A DNA stretch of 49,965 bases, from positions 1-49,965 of the forward strand of contig JABINT010000031.1 in NCBI GenBank assembly GCA_018698075.1, in the 5' to 3' direction. Origin of the DNA: Acidiferrobacteraceae bacterium (GTDB lineage: Bacteria > Pseudomonadota > Gammaproteobacteria > Arenicellales > UBA868). Positions 1,862 through 49,965 of the stretch are shown here, piece by piece. The translations under genes were made by a program, and so were the position numbers. The notes below the pieces were generated by a model, which saw only the letters and a list, made by a program, of their open reading frames with translations, searched no databases and was not told where the DNA came from. Each line of letters begins with the position of its first letter. Position 1 is the first letter of the stretch.

Positions 1862-3616
1862 CTAGTGCGCTTCTTTATCTACAAAGCCGGCCAGTAGCAG
1901 CCCGTTGATAAAGGGCTCGATATTCCGTGGATCCTGATAGGGTTGGAATCTCCGGCTGTCATTCACCGTATAGCCCGGTACCTCGGCCATCACAGCGTCG
2001 CGCTCGGCGGCCGCTCGGCCCATATCGCCCAGTTGTGCGTAACTGGCCGCGAGCACCCGACGATGAAATCGGTTGGGGTTGTCGATTCTCAGTAGTGCCT
2101 GGACAGCATCCACATATCTGTCGGTGTTGTAGTGGGCAATCGCCAACCCCCACAAGTACCATGACGGCGGAAAGGGGTTGTGGGACAGCGCTTTGTTGAG
2201 CTGGATGAGCGCTGACTCGGGTTCACCGGTGAAGATCAGTACGAGGCCTCTGCCGGCGAGCGCATCAGCGTGGTTTGGATTAAGGTCGATGGCCTGATCC
2301 AGGTGAGCCATCGCTTCAATGTAATGCCTGCGCCACAGATAGGTGAGGCCGAAGACGGCATGCGCCAGGCTGTCAGTTGGATCAAGCTCGAGCGCGTGAC
2401 TCGCATGGCGTGCCGCCTGGCGTATACAGGCGTTTGGATCTTCTGTCCACATCATCAGAAAATCCGCCAGGTAGGTCAGTGCGAGGCCCGACAGGGCGGT
2501 CGCGGACGCTGAATCGGTGCGAAGTACCTTTTGGAAAAGTTCTCGAGCTGTTTTGGTGTCGACTGGCTCACGCATCCGGTAGACCAACTGGCGAGCCTGA
2601 ATTGTGTCCGCATAAGCGGTTACCTCAGACTTTGTTGCCGAGTCTCGAATGGCGTTTTGCTCCATATTACCGATCAGCGTCATTACGATGTGCCGGGTAA
2701 TCTCGTCCTGTATTGCCGGCAGATCTGTCATGACGGCATCAAAAGTCTCAGACCACAGGTAGTTGCCGGCTGGAATCTCCAGAAGGTTCACGACCAGGCG
2801 GAAGCTGTCAGCGCGCTTCCGGAGAGTGCCGTCAACCAGATAACGTACGCCAAGGCGTTGACCTAGCTGAGCCTTGTTCTGTGACTGGTGATGCTGTGTC
2901 AGTGCCGTGTGCGAGGCGAGGACAAACAATTGGCGAAACCGCGACAGGGCGCCGATCAGATCTACGGTAAGTGCTTCACCCATGTTGTCCAAAGGCAGAT
3001 TGTGATCAAGACTGGCAAACGGCAGCACCAGGATTGCGAGCCGGGTGTCGGTGGTGTTGTTGCCTTCGCGCTGTGTTATCTCGTAATCTGTGTGCAACAG
3101 GTGGGCGTGGACTGGTACGGCAATATTGCGAAGCAATTGATCGCCGATGGATTCGAAACAGACATCCAGAGAGTCGCCTATGACCTCACGCGCTGATTGC
3201 GAGATACAGATGCCCCCAGGGGGGGCGATTTCCTGTAGCCGGGCCGCGATGTTTACGCCATTGCCGAAAGCCTGGTCACCGTCGACGATCACTTCTCCCA
3301 GGTTGATTCCAATGCGGGCCCGCAAGCACTGGTGTTCCGGTACGTTCTCGTTAGCTACGGCCAGCCGCTTGTGCAGGGCGATGGCGGTTATTGCCGCAGC
3401 GCTGGCGGTAGGGAATACGGCCAGCAGGCTGTCACCGGCTGTGTTGACCAGTTGTCCCCCGTTGTTGGTAATAACGATGCGCGCGTGGGCAAAGCCCTCT
3501 TTCAGCGCGTGGAAGGTCGCTTCTTCATCCTGCCAGGTCAGGCGGGAAAATTCGACGATATCTCCATGTAACACCGCCAACAGCACTCGTTCAGTTTTTT
3601 CTTTAGTTTCGCCCAT
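1862..3616 (-). CDS. class III adenylate/guanylate cyclase domain protein with C-terminal TPR repeats
   Basis: N-terminal 'VLHGDIVEFSRLTWQDEEATF...GDSLLAVFPTASAA...ARIGINLGEVIVDGDQAFGNGVNIAARLQEIAPPGGICIS' cyclase homology domain; TPR pattern 'ALELDPTDSLAHAVFGLTYLWRRHYIEAMAHLDQAIDLNPNHADALAGRG'. Confidence 0.85.
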   Translation of the reverse strand: MGETKEKTERVLLAVLHGDIVEFSRLTWQDEEATFHALKEGFAHARIVITNNGGQLVNTAGDSLLAVFPTASAAAITAIALHKRLAVANENVPEHQCLRARIGINLGEVIVDGDQAFGNGVNIAARLQEIAPPGGICISQSAREVIGDSLDVCFESIGDQLLRNIAVPVHAHLLHTDYEITQREGNNTTDTRLAILVLPFASLDHNLPLDNMGEALTVDLIGALSRFRQLFVLASHTALTQHHQSQNKAQLGQRLGVRYLVDGTLRKRADSFRLVVNLLEIPAGNYLWSETFDAVMTDLPAIQDEITRHIVMTLIGNMEQNAIRDSATKSEVTAYADTIQARQLVYRMREPVDTKTARELFQKVLRTDSASATALSGLALTYLADFLMMWTEDPNACIRQAARHASHALELDPTDSLAHAVFGLTYLWRRHYIEAMAHLDQAIDLNPNHADALAGRGLVLIFTGEPESALIQLNKALSHNPFPPSWYLWGLAIAHYNTDRYVDAVQALLRIDNPNRFHRRVLAASYAQLGDMGRAAAERDAVMAEVPGYTVNDSRRFQPYQDPRNIEPFINGLLLAGFVDKEAH

Positions 3617-41261: not shown

Positions 41262-42020
41262 CTAAAACTGCTGGCTCCAGTCTGCCACCGCCACGACTAA
41301 CTCGTCATTCATCTCGTCAAAAAAGTGGTTTGCACCTTGGATCACCTTTTGACTGTACTGCGGATTATGTGCTGCAGCCTGTTTTCGAAGTTCGGCCGTT
41401 TCGAGTACACCGGGAAGGTCATCTGTACCGTAAAGATCCAGCACCGGAATATTTATGGTTTTCAGTGAAATCGAGCTGTTGACGCCGCTATCTTTCTGCG
41501 TCGCGCCCATACCGATCGCGACAAAGCCCTGGATGTCGTTGGTATTACGCGAGAGGTAATAGCTCGACATCGTGGCGCCTTGGCTGTGGGCAACGATGAC
41601 CAAGGTTTTTACACCCTTTTGCTTAAGGAAGCGCTCAGCCGCCTTCAGGCGCGGTGGAACCTCAGGGTACAGCGGCACCTATTCTTCGTACTTCGCATCG
41701 TTGTGCAATATCGGCATCTGGATCGACAGCGTATGCCAGCCATACTCCGTCATCGCCACGCGGATCGGCTGCACGACCTGCTGCCAGTCGGGGTGGATGC
41801 CGGTGCCATGGACAACGATCATGCCCTTGTTGGAACCATTGGTAGCTTCGGTGTAAATACCGAACACGCCGCGGCCATCAACCATGACATCGACTTCCTC
41901 GCCATCCATGATCGAATCGGCGACCTGCTCGCGCCAGCGTTGCTCCTTGCCAAGGTCGGAAGCAAAGCCAGGCGCAACCAGAGCAATACCCAGAATCAAC
42001 ACGATGTATTTCTTGCCCAT
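41262..42020 (-). pseudogene. exported alpha/beta hydrolase (DUF3530-like) interrupted by one in-frame TAG (41679-41681)
   Basis: Two same-frame ORFs abut exactly: signal peptide plus N-terminal half ending 'LHNDAKYEE*', then 'VPLYPEVPPRLKAAERFLKQKGVKTLVIVAHSQGATMSSYYL' with nucleophile-elbow-like HSQG. Confidence 0.75.
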
Positions 42021-42135
42021 TTCCGTTAGCTCCTATCGCGTTTCTCAGAGAAAAACTAACATAAGTGACTCGCGTGCGCACTCAGCAGGTGCGCAGGTTA
42101 AGCTGACTGGTCTAGACTATCGACTAACCGCGGAT

Positions 42136-42170
42136 GCTAACTCGCTCATTCATCTCAACCGCCTCACCAA
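42136..42170. repeat. imperfect direct repeat, copy 1
   Basis: GCTAACTCGCTCATTCATCTCAACCGCCTCACCAA; 29/35 identical to copy 2 at 42608. Confidence 0.6.
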
Positions 42171-42196
42171 CCCCCCCAACAATTTGGAGGCTACCG

Positions 42197-42310
42197 GTGG
42201 TGGCCAAATCTATCGTTGCTGTAATGCTGGTGCTGTTGCTGACAGGTTGCGCTAGTATCCCTGATGGAATGAACGTCCAATTCGGCATCGACTTCAACCC
42301 ATCAAAATAA
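42197..42310 (+). CDS. tiny lipoprotein (36-37 aa, GTG start)
   Basis: Shine-Dalgarno GGAGG 42186-42190; (M)VAKSIVAVMLVLLLTGCASIPDGMNVQFGIDFNPSK with lipobox L-T-G-C; below the ORF-track size cutoff. Confidence 0.6.
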   Translation: MVAKSIVAVMLVLLLTGCASIPDGMNVQFGIDFNPSK

Positions 42311-42336: not shown

Positions 42337-42576
42337 ATGATGAACGCCTTTCAATCCTTCCGTAACGCCGTCCTTGAAGATGATGACTTACAAGAACAGG
42401 TTATCTCTATCGTAAATACAGCAACTGCCAATGGCTCAGGACTTGGCGACGGCATTGCTACCTTGGCCAAGAATCATGGTTACAGCATTACCTCAGAAGA
42501 AGTCTATGCTCATGCTGATTTCTTAGGACAAGACGGTGACCTGACTGATTTTGAGTTAGAGATGATTAGTGGTTGA
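42337..42576 (+). CDS. Nif11-like / NHLP-type RiPP leader peptide, ending at 'ELEMISG'
   Basis: 'AFQSFRNAVLEDDDLQEQVISIVNTA...GDGIATLAKNHGYSITSEEVYAHA...LTDFELEMISG' follows the Nif11 leader pattern; GAGGA Shine-Dalgarno upstream; adjacent to NHLP-type export genes. Confidence 0.75.
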   Translation: MMNAFQSFRNAVLEDDDLQEQVISIVNTATANGSGLGDGIATLAKNHGYSITSEEVYAHADFLGQDGDLTDFELEMISG

Positions 42577-42607
42577 ATGGCCAGTGATACTTTGGGCGGC
42601 GGTAAAA

Positions 42608-42642
42608 GTTAACTCCCTCATTCATTCCAACCTCTTCACCAA
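42608..42642. repeat. imperfect direct repeat, copy 2 (overlaps integrase remnant 3' end)
   Basis: GTTAACTCCCTCATTCATTCCAACCTCTTCACCAA. Confidence 0.6.
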
Positions 42643-42711
42643 ATCCTCCGCCCTTAAATGGGTATAGCGCATCAGCACACGCGGATCTTTACGCGCTAAG
42701 TGTGCGTTGTC
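42622..42711 (-). pseudogene. 3' remnant of a tyrosine recombinase/phage-type integrase
   Basis: Minus-strand translation DNAHLARKDPRVLMRYTHLRAEDLVKRLE*: typical integrase C-terminus with catalytic Tyr in 'RYTHLRAEDL'; in-frame TAA directly upstream and no other integrase domain seen. Confidence 0.7.
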
Positions 42712-42853: not shown

Positions 42854-45800
42854 ATGAATACTCTGGCCGAGGCGCTTGTATGCCGGGCTGATAACGCTCC
42901 CAGCGACCCGGCATTTTCGTTTATTGAAAACGACGAAGGGCAGATCAGCCAGTTAAGTAATGCTGAGCTCGCATCCTGGGCATGGTGCGCTGCACAGGCG
43001 CTCACGGAGAAGACTCGCGCAGGCCAGCGGATCGTGCTTTTGGCCCCGGAAGGTCTTGACTTCATAGCCGGCTTTTATGCATGCATTCTTTCTGGCCGGG
43101 TTGTGGTTCCCACCTACCCGCCGAACAGTTCCCGGATTACACGGGCGACTACAAGACTGAATCTGCTGATTCGAGATGCAGATCCAGATGCCATTCTCAC
43201 AACGCAGGCCTTGGCCGCGCGCATCACAGCACTGGTGCGCGAGTTTGGATGGCGGCACATACCGGTATTAACCGTTAAAGAGCGCCCTGATAGTGCCTGT
43301 CGCGAGACGGCGGAATCGATGCTTAACAATATTCAGCCAAGGTCTCCGGCGATCATTCAGTACACCTCGGGCTCGACCAGTCAACCGAAGGGCGTGGTGT
43401 TGTCGCATCACAATCTCGTTAACAATGCACGAGGAATGCAGGCCCATGGCGCTTTCGATAGTACTTCAGTGGGCTTCTCGTGGCTGCCGCCCTATCACGA
43501 CATGGGCCTGATCAGCGGCCTTACTCTGCCAGTTTGTGTTGGGTATCACTCGGTGTTGTGTGCTCCCAGTCGCTTCCTCGGCAGGCCAGCGTCCTGGCTT
43601 GAATCTATCGACCGTTTCAGTGCCACGATCACCGGAGGCCCTAATTTCGCTTTCGACCTATGCGTAGAAAAAATAAAAGATCAAGAGATAGAGGGTATCA
43701 GTCTGTCCAGCCTCAAGGCGGTATTTAATGGGGCCGAACCGGTCCGCAGCTTCACCTTGGCGCGCTTTGTTGCACGCTTTAAGTCTTTTGGCTTTAACCC
43801 AGATTCGTTTTCGCCAGTCTATGGGTTGGCGGAGACCACCCTTATGGCGGCCGGTATTCGGGCAGGGGAGCCCGCAGTGGCGCGCGCCTTTGATAAAGAA
43901 TCGCTTTCTTCAGGTGTTGCGCTTCCGCCAACCGGCGGGAACCCAACAGTATCGTTGGTCAGTTGCGGCACGCCGTTGGTAGAACATGCGATCACGATAC
44001 ATGATTCAGAGTCATCGGAACCACTTGGCCCAGGCGTGGTAGGCGAGATATACGTAGAGGGTCCAAGTATTGCATCGGGATACTTCAGATCGGGTGATGC
44101 TGATGCGCCGACCGCTTTTTGTTTAAGCCAACGTTACCCAGGTGAGATGCAGTTTCAAACAGGCGACCTGGGTTTCATTCTTGATGACCATTTATTTATT
44201 ACAGGTCGGATAAAAGATTTGATCATCGTGCGGGGCAAAAATCTTTATCCGCAGGATATAGAGCTTTCAGCCGCAGATGCACATCCTGCAATAGATCACT
44301 ATCGCGTCTGTGCATTTTCAATTGATGATGGCATGTGCGAACAACTCGCGATTGTCTGCGAGATTAAAAGAACACATAGGCGAAATCTTGAAACTACTAC
44401 GGTCACGCGATTGATACGAAAGGCAGTTACTCAGGAGCATAATGTGACCCCTGCTGTTGTCAGTTTAGTTAAGCCCGGAACGATCCCCCTTACCACAAGC
44501 GGAAAAATTCGACGACACGCCTGTCGAGATTTGTTTTTCGCAAAGGGGTGGAATCCGATTTACCAGCACGCGACAAACGAAGGTGAAAAGAATCCTGATT
44601 CGGATGTGTTGATCTCAGCAGGCTATCAAAGGGGTCGATCGCAGAACCTGACGCGACAAAAACTAAAAGGTTTATCGCACGAGGATCAGACACAGGCAAT
44701 CAAAGATTATCTTGCGACAGTTGTTAGTTCGCTTCTCAACCTATCGCCCCAGGCAGTGGTGCATGACAGGCCGCTGATCGAGTCGGGTGTGGACTCTCTT
44801 TCTCTGGTGGAGTTAGGCCACCGAATCCGGCGTGATCTTGATTGTGCTGTGGGCTTGTTCATCGAAAAAGATCTGTCGCTTGATGACTTGGTTCACGAGA
44901 TTCTTGTTCAATTGAGTCATGATCCGGTCAGCGAAGGGCTCACAGGCGTAGACAGAGGCAACGCTAGCAACCGGGATATTCCCATGAGTCCGATACACCT
45001 TGAGTTGCTGGACTCGGGTGCTGACCTTGAGAGGCAGATCGTCACCGTATACATCCGGTTACCACCACAGGCGGACCAGAATGTCGTTAAGCGAATTCTG
45101 TCTCACGTACTCGCCCAGCACGGCGTCTTTTATCTTCGCAAGAACTCCGAGAGACAACACTGGCGATTTGTTCCGTCAGAAACCACGAGCCTCTTTTCTT
45201 TTGCCGTGCTAAAAGCAATCGATTTGGAGGAGGAGCAAGTAAAAAGGTTTTCTAAGGAGTTGGACTCCCTCGTATGTGAGCCATTTGACTTAATACAAGG
45301 CCCGTTGGTCCATGCAGTGTTTGTCGATAAAGGGCCAGGTGAGAGTGGGATGCTGGTACTGTCTTTTTCCCACACCGTCGTTGATGCCATATCGCTATGG
45401 ATACTTTCTAACGAACTAGAGCAGGTCTGGACTCAGCGAAGCGATACGGCAGAGATTCACTCCCCAGTTCTGGATCAATCAGGTCTCGATTGGAACTGCT
45501 ACCTTCACGCCCACGCCCAAAGTCATGTGGCAGGCCAGCAGACGCACTATTGGATGGATATCAAGAAAAAAATCAATGGCTCACTTGTCGATTTACAGCC
45601 CCGCGGCAATCGCGAAGAAAGTTCTTTGCGGGCGGTATCTAGACCTCACCAGCATCCGGGTCGGTTGAACCCGTTTCTCAGTTTAACCTTGTCTGATCGC
45701 TTTGCATCGTTGAGAGAGCAGCATGATGTATTCCTTACGGCATTTTTACGGGCCTGGTATCAGGCGTCTGGCAATGCACTCTGTGCGGTTAGCTTGGAGT

Positions 45801-46345
45801 CGCACGGGCGGCAACAAATGGGTCAGTGGGGCATAAGTGGTATGCCGGTTGGGTGGTTCACTATGCATTTCCCTGTTGTGTTTGAATTGGATCCAAGTGA
45901 TTCCATTTGGTCATCCTGTGACAAGATTACAACTGCGATTAATAACGTCCCTGAAGGTGGATCGGGTTTTGGGCTCTTACGGTATCTGTGTTGCGACCCA
46001 GAAATTCAAACCCTGTTCTCGAAGTTTCCGGCTCCGCTGATACGTTTTGTGTACCGGGGAAAAATGGATCAACGCTTTCGTGACCGCGATGCGTTCAAGA
46101 TTCTCGACGCCAGCGTTCAGCGTCCTTATAAGGCGGGCCCCAGCTCTTCTGACTCAAATGAGATACTGGTTTTTGTGCGCCACGAAGTAGGTGGGTTTTC
46201 ATGGAATATCGAGTCAACACCGGGTACCCGTACCGACTGGAAAATGCCTCCTGAAGAACAACTGGTTAGCCTCATGGAGCAAGCTCTGAATGACGGCCTC
46301 AGGCCTTTCGATAAGATGTCGGCAAAAGTCGCTGAACCACGGTAA
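42854..46345 (+). CDS. fatty acyl-AMP ligase - acyl carrier - condensation-domain protein (NRPS-like)
   Basis: FAAL motifs 'IQYTSGSTSQPKGVVLSHHNLVNNARG', 'SWLPPYHDMGLISGL', 'ATITGGPNFAFDLCVEKI'; carrier 'LIESGVDSLSLVELGHRI'; condensation-like 'LSFSHTVVDAISLW' (HxxxD). Confidence 0.88.
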   Translation: MNTLAEALVCRADNAPSDPAFSFIENDEGQISQLSNAELASWAWCAAQALTEKTRAGQRIVLLAPEGLDFIAGFYACILSGRVVVPTYPPNSSRITRATTRLNLLIRDADPDAILTTQALAARITALVREFGWRHIPVLTVKERPDSACRETAESMLNNIQPRSPAIIQYTSGSTSQPKGVVLSHHNLVNNARGMQAHGAFDSTSVGFSWLPPYHDMGLISGLTLPVCVGYHSVLCAPSRFLGRPASWLESIDRFSATITGGPNFAFDLCVEKIKDQEIEGISLSSLKAVFNGAEPVRSFTLARFVARFKSFGFNPDSFSPVYGLAETTLMAAGIRAGEPAVARAFDKESLSSGVALPPTGGNPTVSLVSCGTPLVEHAITIHDSESSEPLGPGVVGEIYVEGPSIASGYFRSGDADAPTAFCLSQRYPGEMQFQTGDLGFILDDHLFITGRIKDLIIVRGKNLYPQDIELSAADAHPAIDHYRVCAFSIDDGMCEQLAIVCEIKRTHRRNLETTTVTRLIRKAVTQEHNVTPAVVSLVKPGTIPLTTSGKIRRHACRDLFFAKGWNPIYQHATNEGEKNPDSDVLISAGYQRGRSQNLTRQKLKGLSHEDQTQAIKDYLATVVSSLLNLSPQAVVHDRPLIESGVDSLSLVELGHRIRRDLDCAVGLFIEKDLSLDDLVHEILVQLSHDPVSEGLTGVDRGNASNRDIPMSPIHLELLDSGADLERQIVTVYIRLPPQADQNVVKRILSHVLAQHGVFYLRKNSERQHWRFVPSETTSLFSFAVLKAIDLEEEQVKRFSKELDSLVCEPFDLIQGPLVHAVFVDKGPGESGMLVLSFSHTVVDAISLWILSNELEQVWTQRSDTAEIHSPVLDQSGLDWNCYLHAHAQSHVAGQQTHYWMDIKKKINGSLVDLQPRGNREESSLRAVSRPHQHPGRLNPFLSLTLSDRFASLREQHDVFLTAFLRAWYQASGNALCAVSLESHGRQQMGQWGISGMPVGWFTMHFPVVFELDPSDSIWSSCDKITTAINNVPEGGSGFGLLRYLCCDPEIQTLFSKFPAPLIRFVYRGKMDQRFRDRDAFKILDASVQRPYKAGPSSSDSNEILVFVRHEVGGFSWNIESTPGTRTDWKMPPEEQLVSLMEQALNDGLRPFDKMSAKVAEPR

Positions 46346-46398: not shown

Positions 46399-46977
46399 TT
46401 GGCTAAAACCAGTTGGGAGAGAGTTGTGAGAGCCGTACTATATTTCTTGGGATGTCTCAGCGATCTTGATATCAAATGGCTGGTATCCAGCGGCAGGGCA
46501 TTATCCTTTGATGAAGGAGAGACGCTGGTCGTTGCTGGTACTCCTCTTACCGACGTTTTTTTTCTGATGGAAGGAGAGCTCTCAGTCCGGGTGGGCACAA
46601 GCGGCGACCAGGAAGTGAACCGCATGAAATATGGAGAGTTCTTTGGAGAGATCTCTTTCCTGGATAGCCGGCCTCCCAGTGCTACTATTGTTGCGGTCAC
46701 GCCGGTACGTGTGCTCGCGATGGATCGCGACGATATCGAGGGCAAGTTAGACCGCGACGCGGAGTTTGGTGCGCGCTTTTTTCGCGGTATTGGGGTGTTA
46801 CTCGCAAACCGGATACGCGGCCTGATTCAGCATGTAGATGAATCAGAGGAGATAGACCTTTATGCCGATGAAGTGGCAGGAGAACTTGATCCTGATCTTC
46901 TCGATACAATTAATCTTGCCGGTCGACGTTTTGATTTAATGCTGGATTTATTCCGAGATTCATTATCCCGAGGCTAG
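46399..46977 (+). CDS. cyclic nucleotide-binding domain protein without HTH
   Basis: 'LSFDEGETLVVAGTPLTDVFFLMEGELSVRVG...YGEFFGEISFLDSRPPSATIVAVTPVRVLAMDRDDIE'; TTG start. Confidence 0.82.
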   Translation: MAKTSWERVVRAVLYFLGCLSDLDIKWLVSSGRALSFDEGETLVVAGTPLTDVFFLMEGELSVRVGTSGDQEVNRMKYGEFFGEISFLDSRPPSATIVAVTPVRVLAMDRDDIEGKLDRDAEFGARFFRGIGVLLANRIRGLIQHVDESEEIDLYADEVAGELDPDLLDTINLAGRRFDLMLDLFRDSLSRG

Positions 46978-46978
46978 A

Positions 46979-48466
46979 TTGGCTTGGAAACTTGAGCGCG
47001 GTGAAATGAGCGAAGAGAAAAATAAAGCCAGTCCAAAGCCCAGAAGTATTTTTCGGGCCGAAGCGCTCGACCAACTTAGTTCTCCCGAGCAACTTGAACA
47101 GCTTTTGCAGGTGACCGGCCGCAAGTCCTGGATCACACTTGGGACGATTGGTGTATTACTCGGTGCTGTTCTGGTTTGGAGTATCTTTGGTCGGATTCCT
47201 GTTACGGTAAGCGGCACTGGGATTCTCATCTATCCAAGGCATGTGATGCCTTTTCAGGCTTCAACGGCGGGTCAATTGGCTTCATTAAATTTTGCTGTTG
47301 GTGACCGGGTTCAGGCCGGGCAGGTCATTGCTACGATAAGTGTTCCGGAGATCGCCCAACGTTTGGAGCAGGAAATCACACGACTCGAGCGCATGAAAGC
47401 GCGACACTCTACGATCACGGACCTCCAAAACCAACGTTTAAGCCTCGAGACAGAAGCGTTGCATCGCAAGCGCGCAATGCTTAAGGACCGAATCGACACG
47501 GCCAAGGCGATGGCCCAGGCGCTGCGAACGAAAAACGAAACCTATCTGGCGAAGCAGCATACGGTACTCAATGACTACCTGAAAGCACAAACTGAGCTAG
47601 AGGAAACACTGGGTAAGCGATACCAAAGCTTTAAACGGTTGCTTGAGTCGCAGCTTACCTCAGACGAGATGGTCCTTCAGGCCTATCAGAAATTAGTTGA
47701 TGTGCGAATTAAGAAATCAGATCTTGAGCTGGAGGCGCAACAGCTTGAGCTAAAGAAACTCGAGACAGAGGAGGCCTACGCGGAACAGAAAAATCGGATA
47801 GCAGAGTTTACTGCACAGCTGCAAGAAATATCTATTGATGAGACCAGGTTGAAGCAAAAGGGATTTGAAGAAGCCGCAGAACTGGATATTCAAATCCAGG
47901 ATGCGCTTAGGAATATTGCTCGACTCGAGAAATCATTGAAGAAAGGAGGCGAGATCGTAAATACCCATAATGGGGTCGTTTTAGAAATTAGCGCTGTGCT
48001 TGGCGAATTTGTTCGCGCTGGAGAAACGCTCGGATTCATTGAGGCGGAAGATTCGGATAGCAAGTTAATGGCGGTTGGCTATTTCAAGGTGGGAGATGGC
48101 AAAAAAATCCGACTTGGGATGCCAGTGAACATTACGCCATCGACCGTTAAACGTGAACGCTATGGCAGCATCATTGGAGTTATCGCGGATGTATCTGCGT
48201 TTCCAGTAAGCACAGATGCCGTGGTCGCAGTAGTTGGGAATCAGGAGGTGGCTGCTGAGTTGACCCGAACGCAGTCACGAATTCAGGTCTATGCCTCCTT
48301 GAAGATAGATCAGGACACGGTATCTGGTTATGGATGGACATCGGGAGGCGGGCCAGATATGACGATCAGCTCTGGCACAACAGCCAAAGTCAGGGCTACC
48401 GTTCAGTATTTTCGGCCCATTTCGTACGTGATTCCCTTGCTACGGCGTTGGAGTGGCATCAATTAA
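46979..48466 (+). CDS. NHLP-type bacteriocin system HlyD-family secretion protein
   Basis: 'IFRAEALDQLSSPEQLEQLLQVTGRKSWITLGTIGVLLGAVLVWSIFGRIPVTVSGTGILIYP' resembles the NHLP secretion protein N-terminus; coiled-coil and lipoyl-like region; possible start ATG 47006. Confidence 0.85.
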   Translation: MAWKLERGEMSEEKNKASPKPRSIFRAEALDQLSSPEQLEQLLQVTGRKSWITLGTIGVLLGAVLVWSIFGRIPVTVSGTGILIYPRHVMPFQASTAGQLASLNFAVGDRVQAGQVIATISVPEIAQRLEQEITRLERMKARHSTITDLQNQRLSLETEALHRKRAMLKDRIDTAKAMAQALRTKNETYLAKQHTVLNDYLKAQTELEETLGKRYQSFKRLLESQLTSDEMVLQAYQKLVDVRIKKSDLELEAQQLELKKLETEEAYAEQKNRIAEFTAQLQEISIDETRLKQKGFEEAAELDIQIQDALRNIARLEKSLKKGGEIVNTHNGVVLEISAVLGEFVRAGETLGFIEAEDSDSKLMAVGYFKVGDGKKIRLGMPVNITPSTVKRERYGSIIGVIADVSAFPVSTDAVVAVVGNQEVAAELTRTQSRIQVYASLKIDQDTVSGYGWTSGGGPDMTISSGTTAKVRATVQYFRPISYVIPLLRRWSGIN

Positions 48467-49965
48467 TCTGCGAATTGGTTTGAAATCGTCAAGTCGAGTG
48501 CATACACCGGCTGTTCTCCAATTGGAAGCAGTTGAGTGTGGGGCAGCGGCTCTTGCCGCTGTGCTGGGGTTTTATAAGCGATTTGTGCCGTTGGCAGAAC
48601 TAAGACGCGAGTGTGGTGTTTCAAGAGATGGCAGCAAGGCATCAAATCTGATAAAGGCCGCGCGGCGTTATGGGTTGCAGGCCAAGGGCTTGACCCGCCA
48701 GAGTGATGAACTAGCCAAGATAAAGGCGCCTTTTATTATTTTCTGGAACTTTAATCATTTTGTTACCTACGAAGGCTGCCATAAAGAAAAGGTATATGTG
48801 AATGATCCAGCGGTAGGGCACCGGACGATCGCTCGCGAGGAGTTTGATCGGTGTTTTACTGGAGTTGTTCTGGCCATGGAGCCAGGGCCAGAATTCATGC
48901 CTGGTGGCAAACTGCCGGCACTTTGGCCAGCAATCATCGAACGTTTGACTGGTTCGTTTGGCCCCGCTTTGTACTGTTTCCTCGCTGGTCTTTTCCTCGT
49001 CATTCCTGGTCTTGCGATTCCGGCTTTTAACCAGGTTTTTATTGACAGTATTATCCTCGCGGGCCGAGTCGACTGGCTCAGGCCATTAATTCTTGCGATG
49101 GTGATCGCACTGGTCACACAAGGCCTACTCCACTTTCTCCAGTTGCGTTATCTGCGGCGACTGAAGATCAAACTTGCCATGAATATGTCCAGTAAGTACA
49201 TCTGGCACATGCTAACGCTCCCCATTAGTTTTTATCAGCAGCGTTTTGCAGGCGAGGTCGCAAATCGTAGTGAACTGAACGACAAACTCGCGACCCTTAT
49301 GTCTGGCGAGTTAGCGCAAACTGCGATTGGAGTAGTAATGATGGGCTTTTTCGCCCTCGTGATGTTTTCTTACGATGCGCTGCTGACCAGTATAGGCATA
49401 TTTTTTGCGGCCGTTAATTTTGTGGTGTTAAGGCTGGTTTCTAAACGCCGCATTGAATTGAATATGCGAGTCTTGTCCGAGATGGGGAAAACCTATGGAG
49501 TGGCAATAGCGGGTCTGAACAGCATTGAAACCATAAAAGCCAGCGGCCTTGAAGACGACTTTTTTCAGAAGTTTGGCGGATATTTTGCCAAGGGTACTAA
49601 TGCAGCCCAAGCACTTCAGTTATCGAACCTGGTGTTAGTGATCCTGCCCTCGCTCCTCCTGGGATTAACTACGGCATCGATTCTTGTTGTAGGTGCGTTT
49701 CGCGTGATCAATGGGGATTTAACAATCGGCATGCTGGTGGCGTTCCAAAGCCTGATGGCCAGCTTCCTGTTGCCGATTACAGAGTTATCAAACCTGGGGC
49801 AGAAGTTTCAGGAACTTCGCGGCGATCTTAACCGGGTAGACGATGTCATCAAATATCCTACGCCTGAGCCCATTGCCAAAAGAGAGCTCAAAGATAGCGC
49901 CGGCAATCCCGTTATTCGGCTTGATGGGAAAATTGACCTGATTAACCTCACCTTTGGCCATAGCC
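48453..49965 (+). CDS. NHLP-type C39 peptidase/permease/ATPase ABC exporter, truncated by window end (GTG start)
   Basis: 'HTPAVLQLEAVECGAAALAAVLGFYKRFVPLAELRRECGVSRDGSKASNLIKAARRYGLQAKG...IIFWNFNHFVTYEG' C39 domain (Cys codon 48537-48539); TM region; ATPase start 'IDLINLTFGHS' at the edge; overlaps HlyD gene by 14 nt. Confidence 0.87.
   Translation, partial: MASINLRIGLKSSSRVHTPAVLQLEAVECGAAALAAVLGFYKRFVPLAELRRECGVSRDGSKASNLIKAARRYGLQAKGLTRQSDELAKIKAPFIIFWNFNHFVTYEGCHKEKVYVNDPAVGHRTIAREEFDRCFTGVVLAMEPGPEFMPGGKLPALWPAIIERLTGSFGPALYCFLAGLFLVIPGLAIPAFNQVFIDSIILAGRVDWLRPLILAMVIALVTQGLLHFLQLRYLRRLKIKLAMNMSSKYIWHMLTLPISFYQQRFAGEVANRSELNDKLATLMSGELAQTAIGVVMMGFFALVMFSYDALLTSIGIFFAAVNFVVLRLVSKRRIELNMRVLSEMGKTYGVAIAGLNSIETIKASGLEDDFFQKFGGYFAKGTNAAQALQLSNLVLVILPSLLLGLTTASILVVGAFRVINGDLTIGMLVAFQSLMASFLLPITELSNLGQKFQELRGDLNRVDDVIKYPTPEPIAKRELKDSAGNPVIRLDGKIDLINLTFGHS

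Follow-up and report, generated by a model that had tools for sequence, protein, structure and literature searches.

The Nif11-derived peptides (N11P; TIGR03798/PF07862) and their association with NHLP export systems (TIGR03794/03796/03797) were described by Haft et al. 2010 (PMC2887384). The precursor family analysed here resembles them in its Nif11 leader with an acidic, Leu-rich double-Gly end, its many paralogues with hypervariable C termini, and its adjacent HlyD protein and C39 ABC exporter. It differs from them in that its cores have only 3-10 residues with an obligatory C-terminal Cys or Ser and no other Cys, in that its cluster has a FAAL-PCP-condensation protein and no LanM or cyclodehydratase, and in that the copy at the centre of this work lacks the second Gly of the cleavage motif. 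The family is also like the prochlorosins and synechococsins, which combine one conserved Nif11 leader with many divergent cores and near whose genes site-specific integrases have been reported (PMC10783134), a likeness to the recombinase gene ends described below. Prochlorosins, however, are lanthipeptides cyclized by LanM, whereas the cluster here has no lanthionine synthetase and at most one Cys per core. LanM is absent from the cluster genes examined in our locus and in two related genomes (G013 and G017), so these clusters are not of the prochlorosin lanthipeptide type.

A further comparison is with fatty-acylated RiPPs, the selidamides and nostolysamides, which are acylated by GNAT-type acyltransferases. 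These are leader-guided RiPPs, some with NHLP-type leaders or export, whose acyl groups sit on Lys-type side chains (PMC13060382), and the present family is like them in its expected lipid attachment. Our family differs in having a FAAL-PCP-condensation protein and no conserved Lys.

The locus lies in a 49,965-nucleotide stretch of DNA (the window), contig 127 in a metagenome-assembled genome (MAG) of 2.67 Mb and 89% completeness from an Acidiferrobacteraceae bacterium, a marine gammaproteobacterium. Here a Nif11-type precursor gene precedes an intact gene for a 1163-residue FAAL-phosphopantetheine carrier-condensation domain protein (42854..46345, +), which is 42-47% identical to its homologues in the precursor clusters of relatives. 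Next come a cyclic-nucleotide-binding protein of the bacteriocin-transport-associated type (46399..46977, +; TIGR03896-like), an NHLP/NHLM HlyD-type membrane fusion protein (46979..48466, +; TIGR03794, 330 bits) and the NHLP C39 peptidase/ABC exporter ABC1 (48453..49965, +), which is cut by the contig end and covers TIGR03796 profile positions 1-488. The NHLP/NHLM set of the window thus comprises HlyD and a partial ABC1, and the ABC2 of the cluster is absent from the 89% complete assembly; further intact precursors of this cluster may lie in unassembled DNA past the contig end. The export system is complete in G013 and G017, whose clusters consist, in sequence, of precursor(s), glutaminyl cyclase (PF05096, 259 bits), FAAL-PCP-condensation, cNMP-binding protein, NHLP HlyD, C39 ABC1 and ABC2, with additional precursors after ABC2 in G013. 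Elsewhere in the genome of the window there is a second, complete NHLP export system (two HlyD, ABC1 and ABC2; G000:C143:17476-25531, L091 and L096), as well as an unrelated Nif11 precursor that has GG and a long core (GVAGGRGSISSNRISQ...) and adjoins a radical-SAM-like gene (L001:1501-1881, 2255-3142).

The precursor gene opens with ATG at 42337 and encodes a 79-residue leader (42337..42576, +; MMNAFQSFRNAVLEDDDLQEQVISIVNTATANGSGLGDGIATLAKNHGYSITSEEVYAHADFLGQDGDLTDFELEMISG) ending in ...DLTDFELEMISG, where GGT at 42571-42573 is followed directly by TGA at 42574-42576. A second ATG, at 42340, is probably the homologous start. In profile searches the leader matches Pfam Nif11 (PF07862) at 26.3 bits, above the cut-off of 23.8, and TIGR03798 at 28.9 bits, slightly below the cut-off of 32.3, so that the N11P leader domain is recognized by the former profile and narrowly missed by the latter. 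The TIGR03798 alignment reaches profile position 67 of 68, one residue before the double-Gly end. The recognition helix described for C39 peptidases, with L-12, E-8, L-7 and I-4 (PMC6363468), is present as L(-12)...E(-8)L(-7)..I(-4)-S-G(-2) at 42541..42573 (+) and is kept through the first Gly; the TGA (+) stands in place of the second Gly (-1). After the stop the frame continues as ATG GCC AGT GAT ACT TTG GGC GGC GGT AAA AGT TAA (42577..42612, +; TAA at 42610-42612), which would encode MASDTLGGGKS. A first-pass annotation had read the leader as ending in ELEMISG and TGA with these 11 in-frame codons behind it, and sequence, coordinates and frame are all as it gave them. Just upstream of the gene is a 58-residue ORF with a lipobox-like LTGC (42134-42310, +) and no Pfam match.

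When the genus and public genomes were searched at the protein level, many close copies with 65-94% identity emerged; nearly all belong to other genomes of the genus, which often carry several, in tandem. A further 368 genomes of the class yielded no family member. Deduplication left 32 other sequences that keep the region around the cleavage site. All 32 encode Gly at the position of the stop codon (GGT 26, GGC 4, GGG 2, GGA 0), although such tallies, like the Fisher value given below, count copies rather than independent events and overstate independence. The Gly-Gly (Gly-Ala/Ser) cleavage motif is complete in 32/32 relatives and missing from the window ORF, which ends at the first Gly. After the motif, 29 of the relatives continue into short cores of 3-10 residues, two (L007 and L060, the latter being the one tested) run into a Peptidase_S74-type chaperone domain, and one (L030) is a remnant. 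The variable C-terminal core that should follow the motif is likewise missing from the window protein, its slot in the DNA lying past the stop. In the fusions, a Peptidase_S74 (endosialidase chaperone) domain takes the place of the short core behind a Nif11 leader with double Gly (L060:12893-13459 (-); L007/L067).

The region 3' of the gene indicates what the 11 codons are. In relatives the 3' flank starts directly after the core stop codon, and in the window the homologous flank starts 3 nt past the TAA, not past the TGA; the 11 codons therefore fill the core slot. The window flank is identical to that of L012 at 57 of 62 positions (92%), with an alignment score of 52 against a shuffle maximum of 15. 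The stretch after the TGA also keeps the frame, is rich in Gly and Ser, has a length (11) close to that of family cores (3-10) and places Ser before the TAA; its nearest look-alike among cores is GGNPALGGGNS. The continuation exceeds what chance would give: an open run of 7-12 codons ending in Cys or Ser arises in 2.9% of random tails of like composition. We considered a frameshift as the origin of the stop and rejected it: a family-like core appears in neither of the other frames, and the tail read in frame closes at the homologous stop. The 150 nt preceding the window gene do not resemble the DNA upstream of the precursors in relatives; the best score, 15, matches the shuffle maximum.

Read on the opposite strand, the shared flank encodes the C terminus of a tyrosine recombinase (...RVLMRYTHLRAEDLVKRLE stop). 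In the window it forms a convergent C-terminal gene remnant (DNAHLARKDPRVLMRYTHLRAEDLVKRLE stop; 42616..42711, -), longer versions in L009 and L010 match Phage_integrase (PF00589), and 12 of 20 genomes of the genus hold scattered tails of this kind. Recombinase gene ends convergent on Nif11 precursor 3' ends are found in the window (42616-42711 (-), 42147-42174) and at L009:1731-1949 and L010:441-629; a role in cassette mobility is possible.

Taken together, these sequence comparisons suggest, with a probability of about 0.8, that the window gene is a copy of a genus-specific, multi-copy Nif11-leader RiPP precursor in which the second Gly of the double-Gly motif has been lost to a nonsense codon. 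In intact relatives, the neighbouring NHLP exporter would be expected to cleave behind GG with its C39 domain and to export the core. Translation of the window copy would end one residue ahead of the cleavage point, sparing the C39 recognition helix, removing the scissile bond and core, and yielding a leader with nothing to release. The first-pass annotation had suggested a possible nonsense mutant, a reading that is supported, and a C39 exporter with no site and no core to release, which holds for the gene as read; the homologue alignment it called for gives GGN at this codon in 32/32 relatives and a conserved TGA-ATG in none. Its proposed single GGA>TGA step is not suggested by the relatives. 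GGA, the sole Gly codon one step from TGA, makes up 12% of Gly codons in window genes, a usage at which the chance of 0/31 GGA at the site is ~0.016. Its absence from relatives implies that two bases were substituted or that a synonymous change to GGA came first.

Pairwise leader dN/dS between the window and its relatives is 0.02-0.12 (median of the background, 0.089), and the window leader has just three residues found in no relative. A leader so intact and constrained apart from the stop suggests that the change is recent relative to family divergence, although this lack of decay would also be seen if the leader had kept a role of its own or if the assembly were in error. Broken family members are frequent, with in-frame stops, frameshifts or truncation in L007, L014, L021, L023, L028, L048 and L050, and the other two family copies in the genome of the window are remnants.

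An error in the MAG, from base calling, assembly, binning or strain mixture, would mean that the gene is intact in the organism, and we give this a minor but real share of the probability. A second gene close by invites it: the convergent DUF3530/alpha-beta hydrolase gene (41262-42020, -) has a lone in-frame TAG at 41679-41681, where 12/12 same-genus orthologues have Tyr in an open frame. The two genes each carry one lone nonsense codon (at 42574 and 41679) in an otherwise intact ORF, and a check of stop-to-stop frames across the window revealed no other obviously split genes. Two such codons 0.9 kb apart could mean that selection has relaxed locally or that the consensus is poor in this region. 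The leader has no other lesion, the precursor family is repetitive and the copies of relatives often lie at contig ends, all of which fit an error. Against it, the large flanking genes are intact (FAAL, 1163 aa; HlyD, 495 aa), the usual codon of relatives, GGT, is two bases from TGA and out of reach of one error, and single-base consensus errors are rare in short-read MAGs. We judge the TGA about three times as likely to be a real allele as a consensus error.

Readings in which the allele is real and the gene still works fare worse. Purifying selection on the leader across the branch as a whole, and its being the only full-length leader of the family found in its own assembly, would suit a core-less protein kept as a decoy or regulator of modifying enzymes or exporter, the stop itself being selected. 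That signal may wholly predate the stop, however, and the family has no other known leader that lacks a core, which makes such a function improbable. Slightly less probable still is the idea, also raised in the first-pass annotation, of coupled leader and core ORFs, in which ribosomes would stop at TGA and restart on the adjoining ATG to make the 11-mer MASDTLGGGKS as a free peptide, with the leader acting in trans. The ATG is immediately 3' of the stop and the 11 codons are open and family-like, but this split layout occurs in 0/32 relatives, Met is not conserved as a core start and a free 11-mer would have no GG site, which the C39 domain needs in cis. The same continuation of the frame into a family-like core could instead give a full precursor by read-through or recoding of the TGA (Sec or suppression), which we consider the least credible of these readings. 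TGA is an ordinary stop in the window, where it terminates 6 of the 20 genes checked; with A as the next base it is not a leaky context, the RNA fold around it is no better than shuffles (z 1.1), and relatives encode Gly at the codon rather than Cys, Sec or Trp. Two TGA codons reported within the FAAL gene of a relative were discarded as a sign of recoding; they fall beyond its aligned C-terminal end.

The intact members of the family follow simple rules. Their cores usually have 7-10 residues, rarely 3, and the C-terminal residue of all 29 short cores is Cys (19) or Ser (10), with Cys at 0/189 residues elsewhere. Cores that start with Gln follow LISGG in 16/17 cases and MISGG in 0/15 (Fisher p = 6e-8, computed on copies, not independent events). 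A glutaminyl cyclase gene (PF05096) lies within the precursor/FAAL/NHLP cluster at L060:11600-12487 (-) and L062:14380-15279 (-), paired with Gln-starting cores after LISGG; PF05096 is also present in genus members in which no leader was found. In line with this pairing, though weakly, the window leader belongs to the MISG type and PF05096 has no match in its incomplete genome. From its domains, the FAAL-PCP-condensation protein would activate a fatty acid and transfer it onto the core, for which the side chain of the C-terminal Cys or Ser would be the natural acceptor, and the glutaminyl cyclase of some clusters would cap Gln-starting cores as N-terminal pyroglutamate. It is the Gln/LISGG association, the Cys/Ser ends and the cluster genes that lead us to infer these two modifications.

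We tentatively propose, as a possibility that we hold with some doubt, that the intact family represents a new RiPP-NRPS hybrid, in which micro-peptides of 7-10 residues made behind a Nif11 leader are exported through NHLP machinery, are capped with pyroglutamate by a dedicated glutaminyl cyclase if they start with Gln and are acylated by the FAAL-PCP-condensation protein on the obligatory C-terminal Cys or Ser. Their cassettes would duplicate and die fast beside tyrosine-recombinase gene ends, and the window would hold a copy caught soon after its loss. Within the library searched, no paper was found that links Nif11 to glutaminyl cyclase, and a family of very short, Cys/Ser-ended ribosomal peptides looks new. 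Taken alone, a single precursor copy with a nonsense codon is of small importance, yet it offers a clean natural knock-out of a leader cleavage site. Of more interest is the intact family, whose rules (the Gln start after LISGG, the Cys/Ser end, the FAAL-PCP-condensation protein and the glutaminyl cyclase) make a testable prediction of an unstudied class of lipidated, pyroglutamate-capped marine peptides.
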